Shown here in pieces: positions 26 to 20,241 of a stretch of DNA of 27,031 bases. Source of the DNA: a virus; the IMG/VR virus record IMGVR_UViG_3300032287_001212, positions 1 to 27,031 of that record; one strand, given 5' to 3'. Numbering within the stretch: position 1 is the first letter of the stretch; the number at the start of each line of letters is the position of its first letter. Under the pieces are notes generated by a model. The model ran no database searches. It was given only the letters and a program-made list of their open reading frames with translations, and was not told the origin of the DNA. Position numbers and translations under genes: made by a program.

Positions 26-247
26 ATGGTTCCTATGGCTAATGATACTGATTCGAACGAGCCACACATACCGTGGAGTTTACTCGTCACCGTCCTTGTT
101 CTGTGTCTTGTGTTAGTGATAGCCCTACCCATAATGGGAATCATGTATATGGACATGAACAACGCTACTGTGATGGCAATGGAAGAAGTAAAAAAGATGC
201 GTGAGTTACGCGCCAAGATATTAATGCAAATGCAGGGGGAACAATGA
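26..247 (+). CDS. Small single-TM membrane protein, lysis region
   Basis: A 73-aa protein with a hydrophilic N-terminus (about 15 residues), one strong hydrophobic segment at about residues 17-42, then a charged helix rich in Lys, Arg and Met. I do not recognise the family. It sits first in a string of membrane proteins leading to the endolysin, so a holin or holin-regulator role is possible but is inference from context. The reading frame is open to the left window edge, so the true start could lie upstream. ATG 26 and ATG 35 are both possible and neither has a convincing ribosome binding site. Its stop overlaps the next start as ATGA. Confidence 0.6.
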   Translation: MVPMANDTDSNEPHIPWSLLVTVLVLCLVLVIALPIMGIMYMDMNNATVMAMEEVKKMRELRAKILMQMQGEQ

Positions 248-510
248 CGATGCAAGATATTTTAAAAGCCGTGTTGCCTATCCTTGTTGCCGCTATCGGG
301 TGGTTGCTGGGTGAAGTTGGTTCATTTAATACGCGCTTGACTAAGATTGAAGGGTCAATGCCAGCTTTGATTACTGAACAAGGTATTCCAACTGACAGCC
401 CTATTTCAGCCGAGCGTCGCCATGTAATGAAAGAAGAAATCTACAAAGAGATTCACGACCTACAGGTACGGGTCAAGCTTATGGAAGAAAGAGGTAAAAA
501 ACAATGCTGA
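244..510 (+). CDS. Small membrane protein with coiled-coil tail, holin-like
   Basis: An 88-aa protein with an N-terminal hydrophobic helix at about residues 8-24 (VLPILVAAIGWLLG), a linker rich in Pro and Thr, and a C-terminal charged helix (about 58-86) with heptad-like spacing. This topology resembles small phage holin or holin-associated proteins, but there is no diagnostic motif. The start forms an ATGA overlap with the upstream gene and the end overlaps the next gene by 7 nt, so the three are probably translated together. A role in membrane permeabilisation is inferred from position beside a 3TM-type holin and a lysozyme. Confidence 0.65.
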   Translation: MTMQDILKAVLPILVAAIGWLLGEVGSFNTRLTKIEGSMPALITEQGIPTDSPISAERRHVMKEEIYKEIHDLQVRVKLMEERGKKQC

Positions 511-1019
511 CACTACTTTCAACGCTTGTATCGTTTTTGATGGGCGGTCTGCCCAAGATATTGGATTTCTTTCAAGACAAAGCTGACAAAGGCCACGAGT
601 TAAAACTAGCTCAGATGCAAACAGAGCGCGAGCTACAACTAGCAGCCGCAGGCTACGTAGCACAGCAGCGCATAGAAGAGATCAAACTTGATGAGATAAA
701 GACGCAGACAGCTTCTGCGGAGAAAGTCTCGCTAATCGACGCACAACAAGCAGAGATGAGTGCCATCTACGCGCACGACATGAGCTTGAATGAAGGCACA
801 AGTAAGTGGATGAAAGACTTCCGCGCCAGTGTTCGTCCTGTGATTACTTACGGGTTTTTCTTCTTACTGGTTGGTATTGATTCTGTGTTGGCATACAAAG
901 GTTTGACTAGCGGCGTTGACTTTGTGCAGTTAGCTGACCAGCTTTGGGATAACGAGACTCAGGCGCTCTTCGCTTCGATTATTGCGTTTCACTTCGGTGG
1001 CAGGGCGTTTGGAAAATGA
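504..1019 (+). CDS. Putative holin (GTA holin 3TM-like)
   Basis: This 171-aa protein has an N-terminal hydrophobic stretch (about 2-20), a long Gln/Glu/Lys-rich helical region (about 25-100), then the segment KDFRASVRPVITYGFFFLLV at about 104-123 and a last hydrophobic segment near the C-terminus. The R-(A/S)-x-R-P-hydrophobic pattern before the second TM is what I recall from the family of 3TM holins linked to gene transfer agents and phages (PF11351). Such proteins disrupt the inner membrane so that the endolysin can reach peptidoglycan. GAGG at 491-494 gives a suitable ribosome binding site for ATG 504. Family assignment is from memory, not a search. Confidence 0.6.
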   Translation: MLTLLSTLVSFLMGGLPKILDFFQDKADKGHELKLAQMQTERELQLAAAGYVAQQRIEEIKLDEIKTQTASAEKVSLIDAQQAEMSAIYAHDMSLNEGTSKWMKDFRASVRPVITYGFFFLLVGIDSVLAYKGLTSGVDFVQLADQLWDNETQALFASIIAFHFGGRAFGK

Positions 1020-1093
1020 TCTACGTAATTTATTTCAGAATGCTTGTTACTTTAATAGCTAGTGTGTATCTAATTTTACATTTATCAAAATGA
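1016..1093 (+). CDS. 25-aa mini membrane protein between holin and next gene
   Basis: A 25-aa ORF, MIYVIYF... to ...LHLSK, that exactly fills the space between two genes. Its ATG overlaps the holin stop as ATGA (1016-1019), and its own TGA overlaps the next ATG as ATGA (1090-1093). About 20 of 25 residues form a single hydrophobic helix with basic residues near the middle and end. No homologue is recognised. Double coupling of this kind is strong positional evidence that it is translated. A small holin modulator or antiholin is one possibility, but that is speculation. Confidence 0.55.
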   Translation: MIYVIYFRMLVTLIASVYLILHLSK

Positions 1094-1713
1094 AGACCTT
1101 TGTTCTTCGCCCCGAGTTGATGTTTGTTGGTCAGGTACACGGTAAAAAAGTATCGTTACCACCACAAATTAAAGCTGCGACTGAAAAGTATGGTGCGTGG
1201 TACGAGGGTGACGGTGGTGACAAGATACAAGGCGTTTCCTATAAAGGATCATGGGATGATGCTGCCGCAAAAGATATAAAAGGCTATCCCAAGCATTTTT
1301 TGTTTGTGCTTTTTACTAACACAGCAACAAATGAACAGAAAAAAATATTGGCAGGTAATGGGACTATTTTTGACCGCATATTAAAAACGCAAGATAGCTT
1401 TGGTTATTTTAGTAATAAGCGGTTTGACGCAGATACGTTGACAAGTTTTTTGGAAGAAATGGGCGAGGATTATTTAAAGCTCAGTCGCTCACAAGCAACT
1501 AAAGAAAATGTAACGAGGTTTATAGATAAAGGCGAACGTGCTATGTGGGAATCTGGCGATACTCCCGCAAAGAAGATGGCAGACAAAGCAAATAATTACC
1601 GCGACATGTGGCTTCTATCCCAGCCTAAAGGCGTTTATTTTGTGGGTTCCGATCATATAAAAGATTTGGAAAATTTGTATAGAAACAAGGGAACAAGAGT
1701 TGAAAAATACTAA
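1090..1713 (+). CDS. Unrecognised 207-aa protein in lysis cassette
   Basis: A soluble-looking 207-aa protein with no signal peptide or TM segment. It has a mixed alpha/beta look: an aromatic and glycine-rich part at about 35-55 (KYGAWYEGDGGDKIQG), a hydrophobic strand (HFLFVLFTN) at about 69-77, then mainly charged helices to the C-terminus. I do not recognise the family and see no catalytic motif. It is coupled by ATGA to the 25-aa mini-ORF upstream and lies 13 nt ahead of the endolysin gene, so it is co-transcribed with lysis genes. It could be a lysis accessory or an unrelated host-takeover protein inserted here. Confidence 0.7.
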   Translation: MKTFVLRPELMFVGQVHGKKVSLPPQIKAATEKYGAWYEGDGGDKIQGVSYKGSWDDAAAKDIKGYPKHFLFVLFTNTATNEQKKILAGNGTIFDRILKTQDSFGYFSNKRFDADTLTSFLEEMGEDYLKLSRSQATKENVTRFIDKGERAMWESGDTPAKKMADKANNYRDMWLLSQPKGVYFVGSDHIKDLENLYRNKGTRVEKY

Positions 1714-1726
1714 ACTAATATAAATC

Positions 1727-2206
1727 ATGATTAGCCCCAGAGCCTTAAAGATGATCAAGCACCATGAGGGGGTAAGGATTAAACCTTACCGGTGCCCTGC
1801 ACGACTTTGGACGGTTTGCGTGGGCCATGTAATTGAACCTAGTCATGCGCGAGTACCGTTTGAAGACAGGCTACATTTGCCTTGTCCAGAGGGCTGGAAC
1901 CGCGTATTTACATTGGAAGAAGTGGATGCCATACTTGCAAAAGACCTTGAGCGTTTTGAGCGCGGAGTTCTTAAATATTGTCCTACTGCTGGTAGCCGCC
2001 AAGCTTGGTTGGATAGTTTGGTCAGTTTTTCCTTCAATCTAGGCTTAGGAACTTTGCAACGCAGCACACTGCGACAGAAACACAACCGGGGCGACTATGC
2101 AGGAGCCGCCGACGAACTTTTAAAGTATTGCAAAGCAGGCGGTAAGGTCTTAAAAGGCTTAGAGAACCGCCGCAAAGATGAACGCGCCATGTACCTAGGA
2201 GCATGA
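1727..2206 (+). CDS. Endolysin, GH24 phage lysozyme
   Basis: A 159-aa muramidase of the T4/P21 lysozyme type (GH24), which cleaves the MurNAc-GlcNAc bond of peptidoglycan. The E-(8)-C-(5)-T arrangement is present: Glu14 in HHEG, Cys23 in YRCP and Thr29 in LWTVCVGH. Cys in place of Asp at the middle position is known in several GH24 endolysins. A conserved helical part (DSLVSFSFNLGLGTLQRSTL, about 92-111) and the end (GLENRRKDERAMYLG) also fit the family. There is no N-terminal signal or SAR segment, so release depends on a holin. No clear Shine-Dalgarno precedes ATG 1727. Length is typical of T4-lysozyme-like enzymes. Confidence 0.92.
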   Translation: MISPRALKMIKHHEGVRIKPYRCPARLWTVCVGHVIEPSHARVPFEDRLHLPCPEGWNRVFTLEEVDAILAKDLERFERGVLKYCPTAGSRQAWLDSLVSFSFNLGLGTLQRSTLRQKHNRGDYAGAADELLKYCKAGGKVLKGLENRRKDERAMYLGA

Positions 2207-3088: not shown

Positions 3089-4956
3089 TGCCTTACCTAA
3101 GACTCACATTAAAGCCCGGTATAGATAAACAAAATACCGAATACGGCGCAGAAGGCGGATGGATCAACGGTGATTACATCCGCTTTCGCTATGGACTGCC
3201 TGAAAAGCTAGGTGGGTGGACGCAGTTTGGAGACACGTTAGTCTATTTAGTAGGGGTAGTTAGTGAGGTTTTTTCATGGAATTCGTTGGACGGTGTACCT
3301 CATCTGTTGGTTGGAACTACTCGTAAGCTGTATGGCTATGTAGGTGGTACATGGGGAGATGTAACGCCGTTGAGGGTTACTACCGCAGCGGGAGACGTTA
3401 CCTTTGCCGCGACTACCGGCAGTGATTTAGTCACGGTAACGGACTCGCTTCATGGAGCCATTAACGGAGATTTTGTCACCTACAGTGGAGCAGTAAGTCT
3501 AGGCGGAAACGTCACCGCTACTTATCTCAATCAAGAGTTTGAAATCCAAGAAGTATTAACCACAAGTACGTACAGAATTAAAGTAGGGGTGACTGCTAAC
3601 TCTTCCGACGGTGGAAATGGTGGTGGGGCTGTTGTAGGTAAGTACCAGATCAACATCGGTTCAGCCGTTAACTATTTTGACTATGGTTGGGGAACGGGTA
3701 CTTGGGGTCTATATTCGTGGGGAACACCGCGTCCTGCTTCAGCTGGTTTAACGCTCACCTCGCGTGTGTGGCAGTTAGATACTTTTGGCGAAGATGTAAT
3801 TTGTCAAATCGTAAGTGGTGGCATCTATTTATTTAATACCAGTGCGGGCGTGGTAAACAATCGTGCTACTGCAATTGCGGGTGCGCCTACTAAAAGTGAA
3901 TACGCATTAGTGTCTACCCCAGACAGGCACCTTGTTTGTTTTGGTACCGAATCAGTTATCGGTGACCCCACAACGCAAGACCCAATGTTTGTTCGCTTCT
4001 CTAATCAAGAGGACATAAACACGTTTGCCGAATCCGCTATTAACACAGCGGGTGGTCAACGTTTAACAGACGGCAGTACGATTGTTACGGCATTCCGTTC
4101 TCGCGGACAGATTATTATGTTAACGGACACCTCCATACATGGTATGCAATATGTGGGTCCTCCTTACACGTTTGGTTTTCAACAGTTAGGAAGTAACTGC
4201 GGGTGTATTGGACCGCATGCCGGAGCTGACGTTAATGGCGTGGCGTTTTGGATGGGAACTGAAGCTTTTTACATGTTTAACGGTACGGTAAATAAGCTTC
4301 CAAGTACGGTTCAAGATTATGTGTTTAAAGATATTAATCTTGTTCAATCTACTAAGGTCCACGTAGGCATTAATTCTCAATTTAACGAAGTAACGTGGTG
4401 GTATTGCTCTGCAACGTCTGACTATCTTGATCGTTTTGTTACGTTCAATTATTTAGAAAACGTCTGGTCCATCGGGTCAATGGCAAGAACATCATGGGTA
4501 GATATTGGTACTTACACTAAGCCCATTGCCTCTGAGTATTTACCTAGTAGCACTGCTGCTTCTATTTCTACTATTTATGGTTTAACAGCCGGTCGCTCGG
4601 TCTTGTATAACCAAGAGGATGGGAAAAATGGCAACGGCTCACCGATCACGTCGTACATCACATCAGGTTATTTTGACATTGGTGACGGCGACAGCATGTT
4701 GTACATGCGTCGTTTTATTCCTGACTTTAAAAATCAAATCGGGGATTTAACCGTACATCTCTTGTTACGTGCCTATCCTCAAGCAACAGCAAGTCCTAGT
4801 TCATTAGACCCGTACATCATTACCCCGACTACAGACAAAGTAGACACTAGGGCACGGGGCAGGCAGATTAGTTTGCGTATTGAAAGTTCTGCGTTAGGTG
4901 ATAACTGGCGGTTTGGCACAATGCGTGTAGACATACAACCGGATGGATTGAGATGA
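3088..4956 (+). CDS. Tail nozzle / head-tail stabilisation protein, P22 gp10-like
   Basis: A 622-aa virion protein. The N-terminus (LTLKPGIDKQNTEYGAEGGW) and the RFRYGLPEKLGGWTQ segment are typical of the phage stabilisation family related to P22 gp10 and T7 gp12, whose members form the beta-propeller tail nozzle. Repeated Trp/Gly/Tyr motifs (YGWGTGTWGLYSWGTPRP-like, about residues 198-220) and blade-like beta segments with GGIYLFN and MYMFNG-type strands fit a propeller. A separate beta module (about 97-185, with TVTDSLHGAINGDFVTYSGA) looks inserted in the N-terminal part. Start ATG 3088 gives a TAATG overlap; an upstream GTG at 3061 is rejected as inside the previous gene. The family call is from memory. 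Confidence 0.75.
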   Translation: MPYLRLTLKPGIDKQNTEYGAEGGWINGDYIRFRYGLPEKLGGWTQFGDTLVYLVGVVSEVFSWNSLDGVPHLLVGTTRKLYGYVGGTWGDVTPLRVTTAAGDVTFAATTGSDLVTVTDSLHGAINGDFVTYSGAVSLGGNVTATYLNQEFEIQEVLTTSTYRIKVGVTANSSDGGNGGGAVVGKYQINIGSAVNYFDYGWGTGTWGLYSWGTPRPASAGLTLTSRVWQLDTFGEDVICQIVSGGIYLFNTSAGVVNNRATAIAGAPTKSEYALVSTPDRHLVCFGTESVIGDPTTQDPMFVRFSNQEDINTFAESAINTAGGQRLTDGSTIVTAFRSRGQIIMLTDTSIHGMQYVGPPYTFGFQQLGSNCGCIGPHAGADVNGVAFWMGTEAFYMFNGTVNKLPSTVQDYVFKDINLVQSTKVHVGINSQFNEVTWWYCSATSDYLDRFVTFNYLENVWSIGSMARTSWVDIGTYTKPIASEYLPSSTAASISTIYGLTAGRSVLYNQEDGKNGNGSPITSYITSGYFDIGDGDSMLYMRRFIPDFKNQIGDLTVHLLLRAYPQATASPSSLDPYIITPTTDKVDTRARGRQISLRIESSALGDNWRFGTMRVDIQPDGLR

Positions 4957-18658: not shown

Positions 18659-18692
18659 GGGCCTGAAACCGTAAGGGAGTAGGGCCCTTTTT
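18659..18692 (+). terminator. Candidate intrinsic terminator after SSB-like gene
   Basis: GGGCC (18659-18663) can pair with GGCCC (18683-18687), followed directly by five T (18688-18692). The stem is only 5 bp with a 19-nt loop, so it may only attenuate. It would reduce transcription from the SSB-like gene into the primase. Confidence 0.4.
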
Positions 18693-18708
18693 GCCTGAGA
18701 AAGCAGAA

Positions 18709-20241
18709 ATGACTGACATCACCAAATTCAAATCGATTTTTGAGGGATTGGATATTGCTTATGGCACCTACAAAATCGAGAGGGCTAAGGACAGTGGCAA
18801 GCAGGCGGGAAAGGCTGTTGTCGTTCGTAAACCACCAACTGACGATTTGTGGGTTGCTCACTTGGAAGGTGTTGAGCCTTCCCTTGGCATTATTCCTATT
18901 CGCGCTGATAACCACTGCATATGGGGTTGTATTGATATCGATCAGTACCCTCTGGATCATGCGGGCCTTATTGCGAAAGTTCGTAGGTTAAATCTTCCCT
19001 TAGTTGTGTGCCGCAGTAAATCAGGTGGCGCTCACATATTTTTATTTGTTAAGACCCCTATTCCTGCTGCTGAGATGCAGAGGTTTTTAAACACGTGTGC
19101 GAGTTTACTTGGAGAAGCTGGTCGTGAAATTTTCCCGAAACAAACTGAAATCCTTGTTGAGCGCGGTGACACAGGCAACTTCCTTAACCTTCCGTATTTC
19201 GGGGGTGAAGAAACCATGCGTTACGCGATTAATGACGATGGAACAGCTTCCTCGCTTGATGAGTTCTATGCTCTCTACGACAAGTATGCCCAAGACGTGC
19301 CGCTTGTTCATCCGGAAGAGGCGAAAAAAGAAGCTGACAGCCCCGCAAAGGACGGCCCCCCTTGTCTACAGGCATTGTGTGGTCAGGGATTTCCGGAAGG
19401 CACTCGCAACAACGGCTTATTTAACATCGGCATCTATTTAAAAAAAGCCGCCCCGGGTGAGTGGGAAAACAAACTCATGGAATACAACATGAAGTACTTT
19501 GGGCCGCCATTGCCGCTCAATGAACTTCAGATCATTACTAAGCAGCTGAATAAAAAAGATTACAAGTACAAGTGCAAAGACGCACCGTTAAGCAGCTTCT
19601 GCAATTCTGGTTTGTGTAGAACACGCAAACATGGTGTAGGTGCTGACGGTCCTGACGCACCACAAATATCAAGCCTATCAAAATACAACTCTGAGCCACC
19701 GTTGTGGTTCTTGGACGTGAATGGTAAACGCATTGAGCTCGACACTGATCAACTGTTTAACCAGCCGCAGTTCCAAAAGTCCTGCGTTGAACGCTTGAAC
19801 GTTTTGCCGCCTACACTGCGCAGACAAGATTGGGAAAGCTTTTTAAACAGTTTGCTGCGTGAGATGGTGGAGCTTGAGCAGATACAAGATGCACCTGAAG
19901 ACACTAGCTACACAGGTCGCTTCACTGATCTACTAGAAGAGTTTACTACTCACTTGCAACAAGCCATGGACCGTGAAGAGATTCTTATGGGCCGCCCGTG
20001 GACGAGTGAAGAAGATGCGATGGTGTACTTTCGCATCAAAGATTTAGAAGCACATTTAAAGCGCAGTAGTTTTACTAGTATGTCTGCACCTCGCATGGCC
20101 CAGAAACTTCGCGACATAGGTGGTGAGCCTATCAGCTTATTTCTAAAAGGCCGTTCTGTACGTACTTGGCGGGTCCCACGTTTCGCGCGCCAAGAGTCAC
20201 CCTTTGAAACGCCTGAACACAGAAAAGGAGCATTCTTCTAA
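18709..20241 (+). CDS. Archaeo-eukaryotic-type primase (TOTE-like AEP)
   Basis: A 510-aa protein. Catalytic features of the AEP superfamily: DxD at Asp76/Asp78 in CIDIDQY, the SxxGGxH motif at about 103-109 (SKSGGAH), and IFPKQTEI and GNFLNLPYF (about 141-164). This set most closely recalls the primase domain of TOTE-type systems. A helical part (about 215-280, EGTRNNGLFNIGIYL) resembles PriCT-like domains, and Cys289, Cys298, Cys303 suggest a metal-binding cluster. It would make primers for the PolA encoded downstream. ATG 18709 replaces the TTG at 18691, which falls inside the T-run of the hairpin. The C-terminal part (about 400-510) is unassigned. Confidence 0.82.
   Translation: MTDITKFKSIFEGLDIAYGTYKIERAKDSGKQAGKAVVVRKPPTDDLWVAHLEGVEPSLGIIPIRADNHCIWGCIDIDQYPLDHAGLIAKVRRLNLPLVVCRSKSGGAHIFLFVKTPIPAAEMQRFLNTCASLLGEAGREIFPKQTEILVERGDTGNFLNLPYFGGEETMRYAINDDGTASSLDEFYALYDKYAQDVPLVHPEEAKKEADSPAKDGPPCLQALCGQGFPEGTRNNGLFNIGIYLKKAAPGEWENKLMEYNMKYFGPPLPLNELQIITKQLNKKDYKYKCKDAPLSSFCNSGLCRTRKHGVGADGPDAPQISSLSKYNSEPPLWFLDVNGKRIELDTDQLFNQPQFQKSCVERLNVLPPTLRRQDWESFLNSLLREMVELEQIQDAPEDTSYTGRFTDLLEEFTTHLQQAMDREEILMGRPWTSEEDAMVYFRIKDLEAHLKRSSFTSMSAPRMAQKLRDIGGEPISLFLKGRSVRTWRVPRFARQESPFETPEHRKGAFF

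Follow-up and report, generated by a model that had tools for sequence, protein, structure and literature searches.

Holin activity in phages is subject to regulation by antiholins and related proteins such as lambda S107 and T4 RI, which target the membrane-bound holin and shift the time of lysis. Accessory small holin-like proteins, exemplified by those of Gordonia phages, are small membrane proteins encoded in overlapping frames beside the holin and endolysin genes, and the number of small membrane proteins in these lysis cassettes varies from phage to phage (PMC9671378). In the RNA phage GA the lysis gene is coupled by termination-reinitiation and started without a Shine-Dalgarno (SD) sequence of its own (PMC9955659). 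Short segments are swapped between diverged phages by mosaic exchange and at homing-nuclease slots, with nuclease genes located at the points of exchange (PMC3945230; PMC10448857) and marking its boundaries (PMC10448857).

The locus considered here lies in a viral contig of 27,031 nucleotides (IMG/VR record IMGVR_UViG_3300032287_001212), analysed over its full length and referred to as the window, and centers on a 25-codon open reading frame, the mini-ORF. By analogy with S107 and RI its peptide would act on the holin, although it is far shorter than either and no homology was found in Pfam or PHROGs. It differs from the Gordonia-type proteins in having only 25 aa and one helix and in forming an exact 74-bp cassette, a comparison made by description beyond the absence of Pfam and PHROG matches (PMC9671378). 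A termination-reinitiation start lacking its own SD is proposed here as in GA, but GA is an RNA phage with a different overlap and no inserted mini-ORF (PMC9955659). In contrast to the segments of known mosaic exchange, the unit comprises one gene of 25 codons whose edges coincide exactly with ATGA (PMC3945230; PMC10448857). The features of the window on which the argument draws are the following.

244..510, plus strand: 88-aa gene with a hydrophobic N-terminal stretch, in the same overlapping operon; possible spanin
504..1019, plus strand: holin-like gene (phrog_6637), 171 aa; relatives have it next to lysozyme
996..1013, plus strand: SD-like region within the 3' end of the holin-like gene; positioned to serve the mini-ORF here and lysozyme in empty alleles
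1014..1019, plus strand: left AAATGA of a direct repeat, where cross-phage identity ends; AAATGAT where lysozyme follows
1016..1019, plus strand: ATGA overlap of mini-ORF start and holin-like gene stop, present in all copies
1016..1093, plus strand: 25-aa single-TM mini-ORF, MIYVIYFRMLVTLIASVYLILHLSK; 24 contigs, 7 alleles, frame-specific purifying selection
1088..1093, plus strand: right AAATGA of the direct repeat, cassette boundary
1090..1093, plus strand: ATGA overlap of mini-ORF stop and next gene start, present in all copies
1090..1713, plus strand: 207-aa accessory slot gene, directly 3' of the mini-ORF; not the endolysin
1727..2206, plus strand: endolysin, Phage_lysozyme PF00959, E=1.5e-33

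The mini-ORF had been noticed in a sequence-only reading as a membrane peptide gene coupled through ATGA at both ends, and the coordinates of the three frames (504-1019, 1016-1093 and 1090-1713, with the TGA of the upstream frame at 1017-1019) bear this out; such a stop/start overlap is the one expected of a termination-reinitiation coupled pair. Double coupling was also thought to be rare by chance. This is the sole mini-ORF on either strand of the window that is locked by ATGA on both sides between frames of at least 60 aa, but 7.5% of dinucleotide shuffles of its 70 inner bases, with both ATGA ends fixed, stay open, which is only mildly improbable. The share that is both open and at least as hydrophobic as the real peptide is 0.9%. 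Such odds, taken from the window alone, are suggestive of coding; it is the relatives that decide. The description of the product as almost wholly one hydrophobic helix agrees with a GRAVY of 1.61, but needs qualification, as a basic residue at position 8 (R/K8) and the polar residues T12, S16 and K25 are kept across two clades. The peptide has no match in Pfam or PHROGs and no homology there to holin or antiholin families, searches with low power at 25 aa; no relative was found in bacterial genomes, and neither the peptide nor the 207-aa protein has a relative among named phages. RNA structure was considered as the conserved feature and rejected, the region folding no better than shuffles (z 0.77). 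A gene this short, outside the Pfam and PHROGs families, could easily be missed by gene callers.

The search for relatives used the proteins encoded on either side, the peptide itself and DNA patterns that tolerated inner stops. Within a family of uncultured phages the mini-ORF was found in 24 viral contigs, the window included, as 7 DNA alleles encoding 7 peptides in two clades, all of 25 aa. Peptides of one clade read MIYVIYFRMLVTLIASVYLILHL[SP]K plus variants and those of the other MIYLIYTKMALT[LM][LF]ISGYLILNLPK, with MIYxIYx[KR]MxxTxxxSxYLILxL[PS]K common to both. Every context-true copy (24/24) lies in the slot after the holin-like gene and keeps the frame and both ATGA overlaps, followed by lysozyme in 18 contigs and by the 207-aa gene in 6. 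A copy with the same flanks and a broken frame, which would have spoken against a gene, was looked for and not found among the 24 contigs, and relatives lacking the mini-ORF show a clean absence. No instance of the peptide was found outside the slot between holin-like gene and lysozyme anywhere in the viral collection; pattern matches in L142, L143, L144, L365 and L369 proved unrelated. Substitutions between alleles spare the amino acids: the main allele differs from allele 1 (L037/L153/L154) by 17 nucleotide changes that alter 5 codons where 10.3 are expected (P 0.0004-0.0008) and from L041 by 1 changed codon against 5.3 (P about 0.0012-0.0015), while between-clade pairs have 10 changed codons where 14.7 are expected (P 0.0018) and 11 where 14.9 are (P 0.0045), pairs that share ancestry and are not independent tests. 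No such bias was seen in the five other frames of the allele pairs tested. With an intact, conserved frame and excess synonymous change, 1016-1093 is, on this comparative evidence, a real protein-coding gene conserved at the protein level and not a chance frame. The earlier claim of a real membrane-peptide gene locked by both ATGAs is thus upheld, although its optional and horizontally exchanged nature had been overlooked.

That nature is apparent from the DNA of the copies. The same 78 bp are identical in phages that differ at 15-39% of bases in the flanking genes. Between L153 and L154 all 78 of 78 bases agree, against 68% identity in the holin-like flank and 61% in the lysozyme flank, and the identical stretch ends 2 bases to the left and 1 base to the right of the ATGA-bounded unit; L358, L360 and L361 likewise share 78/78 bases between flanks that are 76-87% identical, and 8 contigs with 73-100% upstream identity carry the main allele unchanged. 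In divergent pairs there are 0 differences in 70 cassette bases, whereas flanking 70-bp windows differ by at least 5-14 (mean 12-21), with lower minima in a few more recent pairs. Constraint on the DNA itself was rejected as the source of this identity, because alleles without recent exchange differ as much as their flanks do (17/70 in the mini-ORF, about 19/70 in the flank). Since identity stops within a few bases of the ATGA junctions, the 25-codon gene appears to pass from phage to phage as a unit of exactly 74 bp with AAATGA repeats at its ends, a horizontally exchanged cassette far more alike than both flanks and with sharp edges; occupying a single slot, 74 bp long and carrying no enzyme, it does not fit the definition of a transposable element. 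The AAATGA(T) repeats are also present at empty sites, so that recombinational loss between them would restore the empty allele exactly. Relaxed phage recombination (PMC3945230) and the homing nucleases found in the slot (PMC10448857) are candidate routes for the gain of the cassette. As few as 25 codons thus suffice for a phage gene under selection and horizontal exchange.

In most relatives the mini-ORF is absent and the ATGA of the holin-like gene starts lysozyme directly, as at 55 of 86 distinct junctions surveyed. The mini-ORF occupies 12 of the 86 (5 with the 207-aa gene behind it), the 207-aa gene alone 3, and inserts the size of a GIY-YIG gene 4, three of which were checked against Pfam and all match GIY-YIG; the remaining junctions have other contents. 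A second survey took 117 junctions by the C-terminal DNA pattern of the holin-like gene, and about 98 were empty (87 plus 11, these 11 and the split of the other contents being read manually from the listing), 12 held a 50-aa ORF (MIWTLVLVTGIN..), 2 a 48-aa ORF, 3 other ORFs and 1 the mini-ORF, with 1 cut by a contig end. By these comparisons the mini-ORF is an optional gene of the lysis operon, and the empty and filled alleles with the same neighbours form a natural series. Other cargo of the slot comprises GIY-YIG nucleases, 207- and 209-aa genes and several small ORFs; none of the slot genes tested against a defence library gave a match. The homing-type GIY-YIG nucleases, each with ATGA at its start and two of the three with NUMOD3, lie between holin-like gene and lysozyme at the following positions.

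L057, 3296-3835: GIY-YIG homing-type nuclease
L060, 1583-2122: GIY-YIG homing-type nuclease
L074, 641-1120: GIY-YIG homing-type nuclease

An insert of GIY-YIG length at L070:4513-5050 has no long open frame listed and is possibly a decayed nuclease. A second small slot gene of about 50 aa (MIWTLVLVTGINMN...), starting in the ATGA and without a Pfam match, was seen in contigs L246, L251, L254, L262, L275, L305, L315, L328, L329, L330, L332 and L344. In L269, where the holin-tail match is at 3164-3196 on the minus strand, the slot ORF behind it (MTRLLILVLLCILVAFHIFGC...) has a lipobox-like start and is possibly an outer-membrane spanin.

The genes around the slot give it its lysis context. The upstream gene had been called a holin; it does lie beside lysozyme in relatives, but its match to PF11351 (GTA_holin_3TM) is below the curated cut-off (E=0.18, 2/16 members) and does not place it in that family. 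An RP and F-F-G pattern is shared in the alignment, and this pattern together with the lysozyme neighbours suggests that the 171-aa protein works like a holin; the label holin-like refers to where the gene lies and how its product is built rather than to a family assignment. Named phages have only distant relatives of this gene, adjoining lysozyme, and in one Bradyrhizobium phage such a relative lies near a peptidoglycan-binding protein. The 88-aa gene overlaps its neighbours at 244 (ATGA) and 504 (ATGCTGA). The family of the 207-aa gene (1090-1713 in the window; L089-L129) occurs at different sites in other phages, and the protein yields a confident predicted model (pLDDT 87) with no match in the PDB at E<0.001.

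Insertion of the cassette also alters the translation signals, as judged by the best pairing with the 16S tail within 18 bases 5' of each start. In the window the pairing energy is -6.0 kcal/mol before the mini-ORF, +2.0 before 1090 and +1.6 before 1727. Across alleles the mini-ORF start has -4.9 to -6.2 kcal/mol and, in empty alleles, the lysozyme start -5.5 to -6.2; for the gene behind the mini-ORF it is about +1 to +2, the SD-like site being lost in every copy tested. Capture of this site by the cassette would leave the follower gene to reinitiation, and lysozyme behind the mini-ORF should depend on it; lower lysozyme output with the mini-ORF is a prediction, not a result. Reinitiation in overlapping pairs depends on the SD strongly but variably: of five E. 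coli pairs studied, three lost 60-90% of their reinitiation once the SD was removed (PMC6728339). In the window the lysozyme start at 1727 has no SD-like site either, though it does not adjoin the mini-ORF, so initiation in AT-rich sequence might be enough for these genes and coupling unnecessary. A -1 frameshift at ..AAATGA that would fuse the peptide to the holin-like protein was judged unlikely by inspection, the base before AAA being variable (GGN AAA), and is further disfavoured by the use of the same junction to start lysozyme in empty alleles.

How these properties translate into function can be framed around a preferred reading, in which about even confidence is placed: the mini-ORF product would be an accessory membrane component of the lysis slot and would modulate the holin, the lysozyme level or both. 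A lysis-timing peptide is the leading hypothesis; it gains plausibility from a location confined to the slot that separates the holin-like gene from lysozyme, and from the missing SD-like site at the lysozyme start. Ribosomes finishing the holin-like gene would start on the mini-ORF, produce an inner-membrane peptide of 25 aa with a single helix, stop, and restart on the gene behind it, lysozyme or the 207-aa gene. The peptide would probably contact the holin-like protein in the membrane and shift the moment of triggering, and the relay would lower lysozyme synthesis; both effects would change when the cell lyses or how large the burst is, optionally and depending on the niche. Points against this reading are that the upstream gene has no above-threshold holin match, that most relatives live without the peptide, that the gene directly after it in the window is the 207-aa one, and that its location may be due to a hotspot for insertion and not to any part in lysis. 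A more elaborate version, somewhat doubtful, sees a 74-bp plug-in lysis timer that would combine a holin-binding peptide with removal of the lysozyme RBS to create the reinitiation relay, the ATGA junction serving as a standard port for small genes. The locus offers a simple test of whether an inserted termination-reinitiation step in a lysis operon alters lysis timing.

Other explanations part with the preferred reading at different points. Chance can be set aside almost entirely: AT-rich DNA does yield hydrophobic codons and 7.5% of the shuffles leave an open frame, but 24 intact copies in two clades, selection in frame 0 only and the retention of both overlaps refute a chance ORF in a short spacer. 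The relay might instead act alone, with a near-idle peptide and a cassette whose SD-less termination-reinitiation step lowers lysozyme relative to holin; ATGA coupling, the consistent loss of the downstream SD-like site and the published effect of the SD on reinitiation (PMC6728339) would fit, but a mere relay has no need of conserved residues such as R/K8, T12, S16 and K25, and it is considered unlikely. Rather improbable too is a membrane peptide with a role apart from lysis timing, for example one that alters the host membrane to counter superinfection or a defence system, and that is lodged in a permissive slot. The slot does take unrelated cargo, but the peptide, unlike the 207-aa gene, was found only there in the viral collection, and not in bacterial genomes. 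A selfish or neutral cassette, spread and lost through recombination at the AAATGA repeats, perhaps aided by homing nucleases and of no benefit, would account for the precise edges and the 78 bp shared by divergent phages, and GIY-YIG genes do share the slot, as nuclease genes mark phage exchange boundaries (PMC10448857); frame-specific purifying selection and the lack of decayed copies already disfavour it and make it very unlikely.

Elsewhere in the window, the frame at 18691-20241 encodes a primase-like protein with a match (E=4.7e-13) to the TOTE conflict-system AEP domain; a UvrD-type helicase gene and one for a family A DNA polymerase lie downstream of it.
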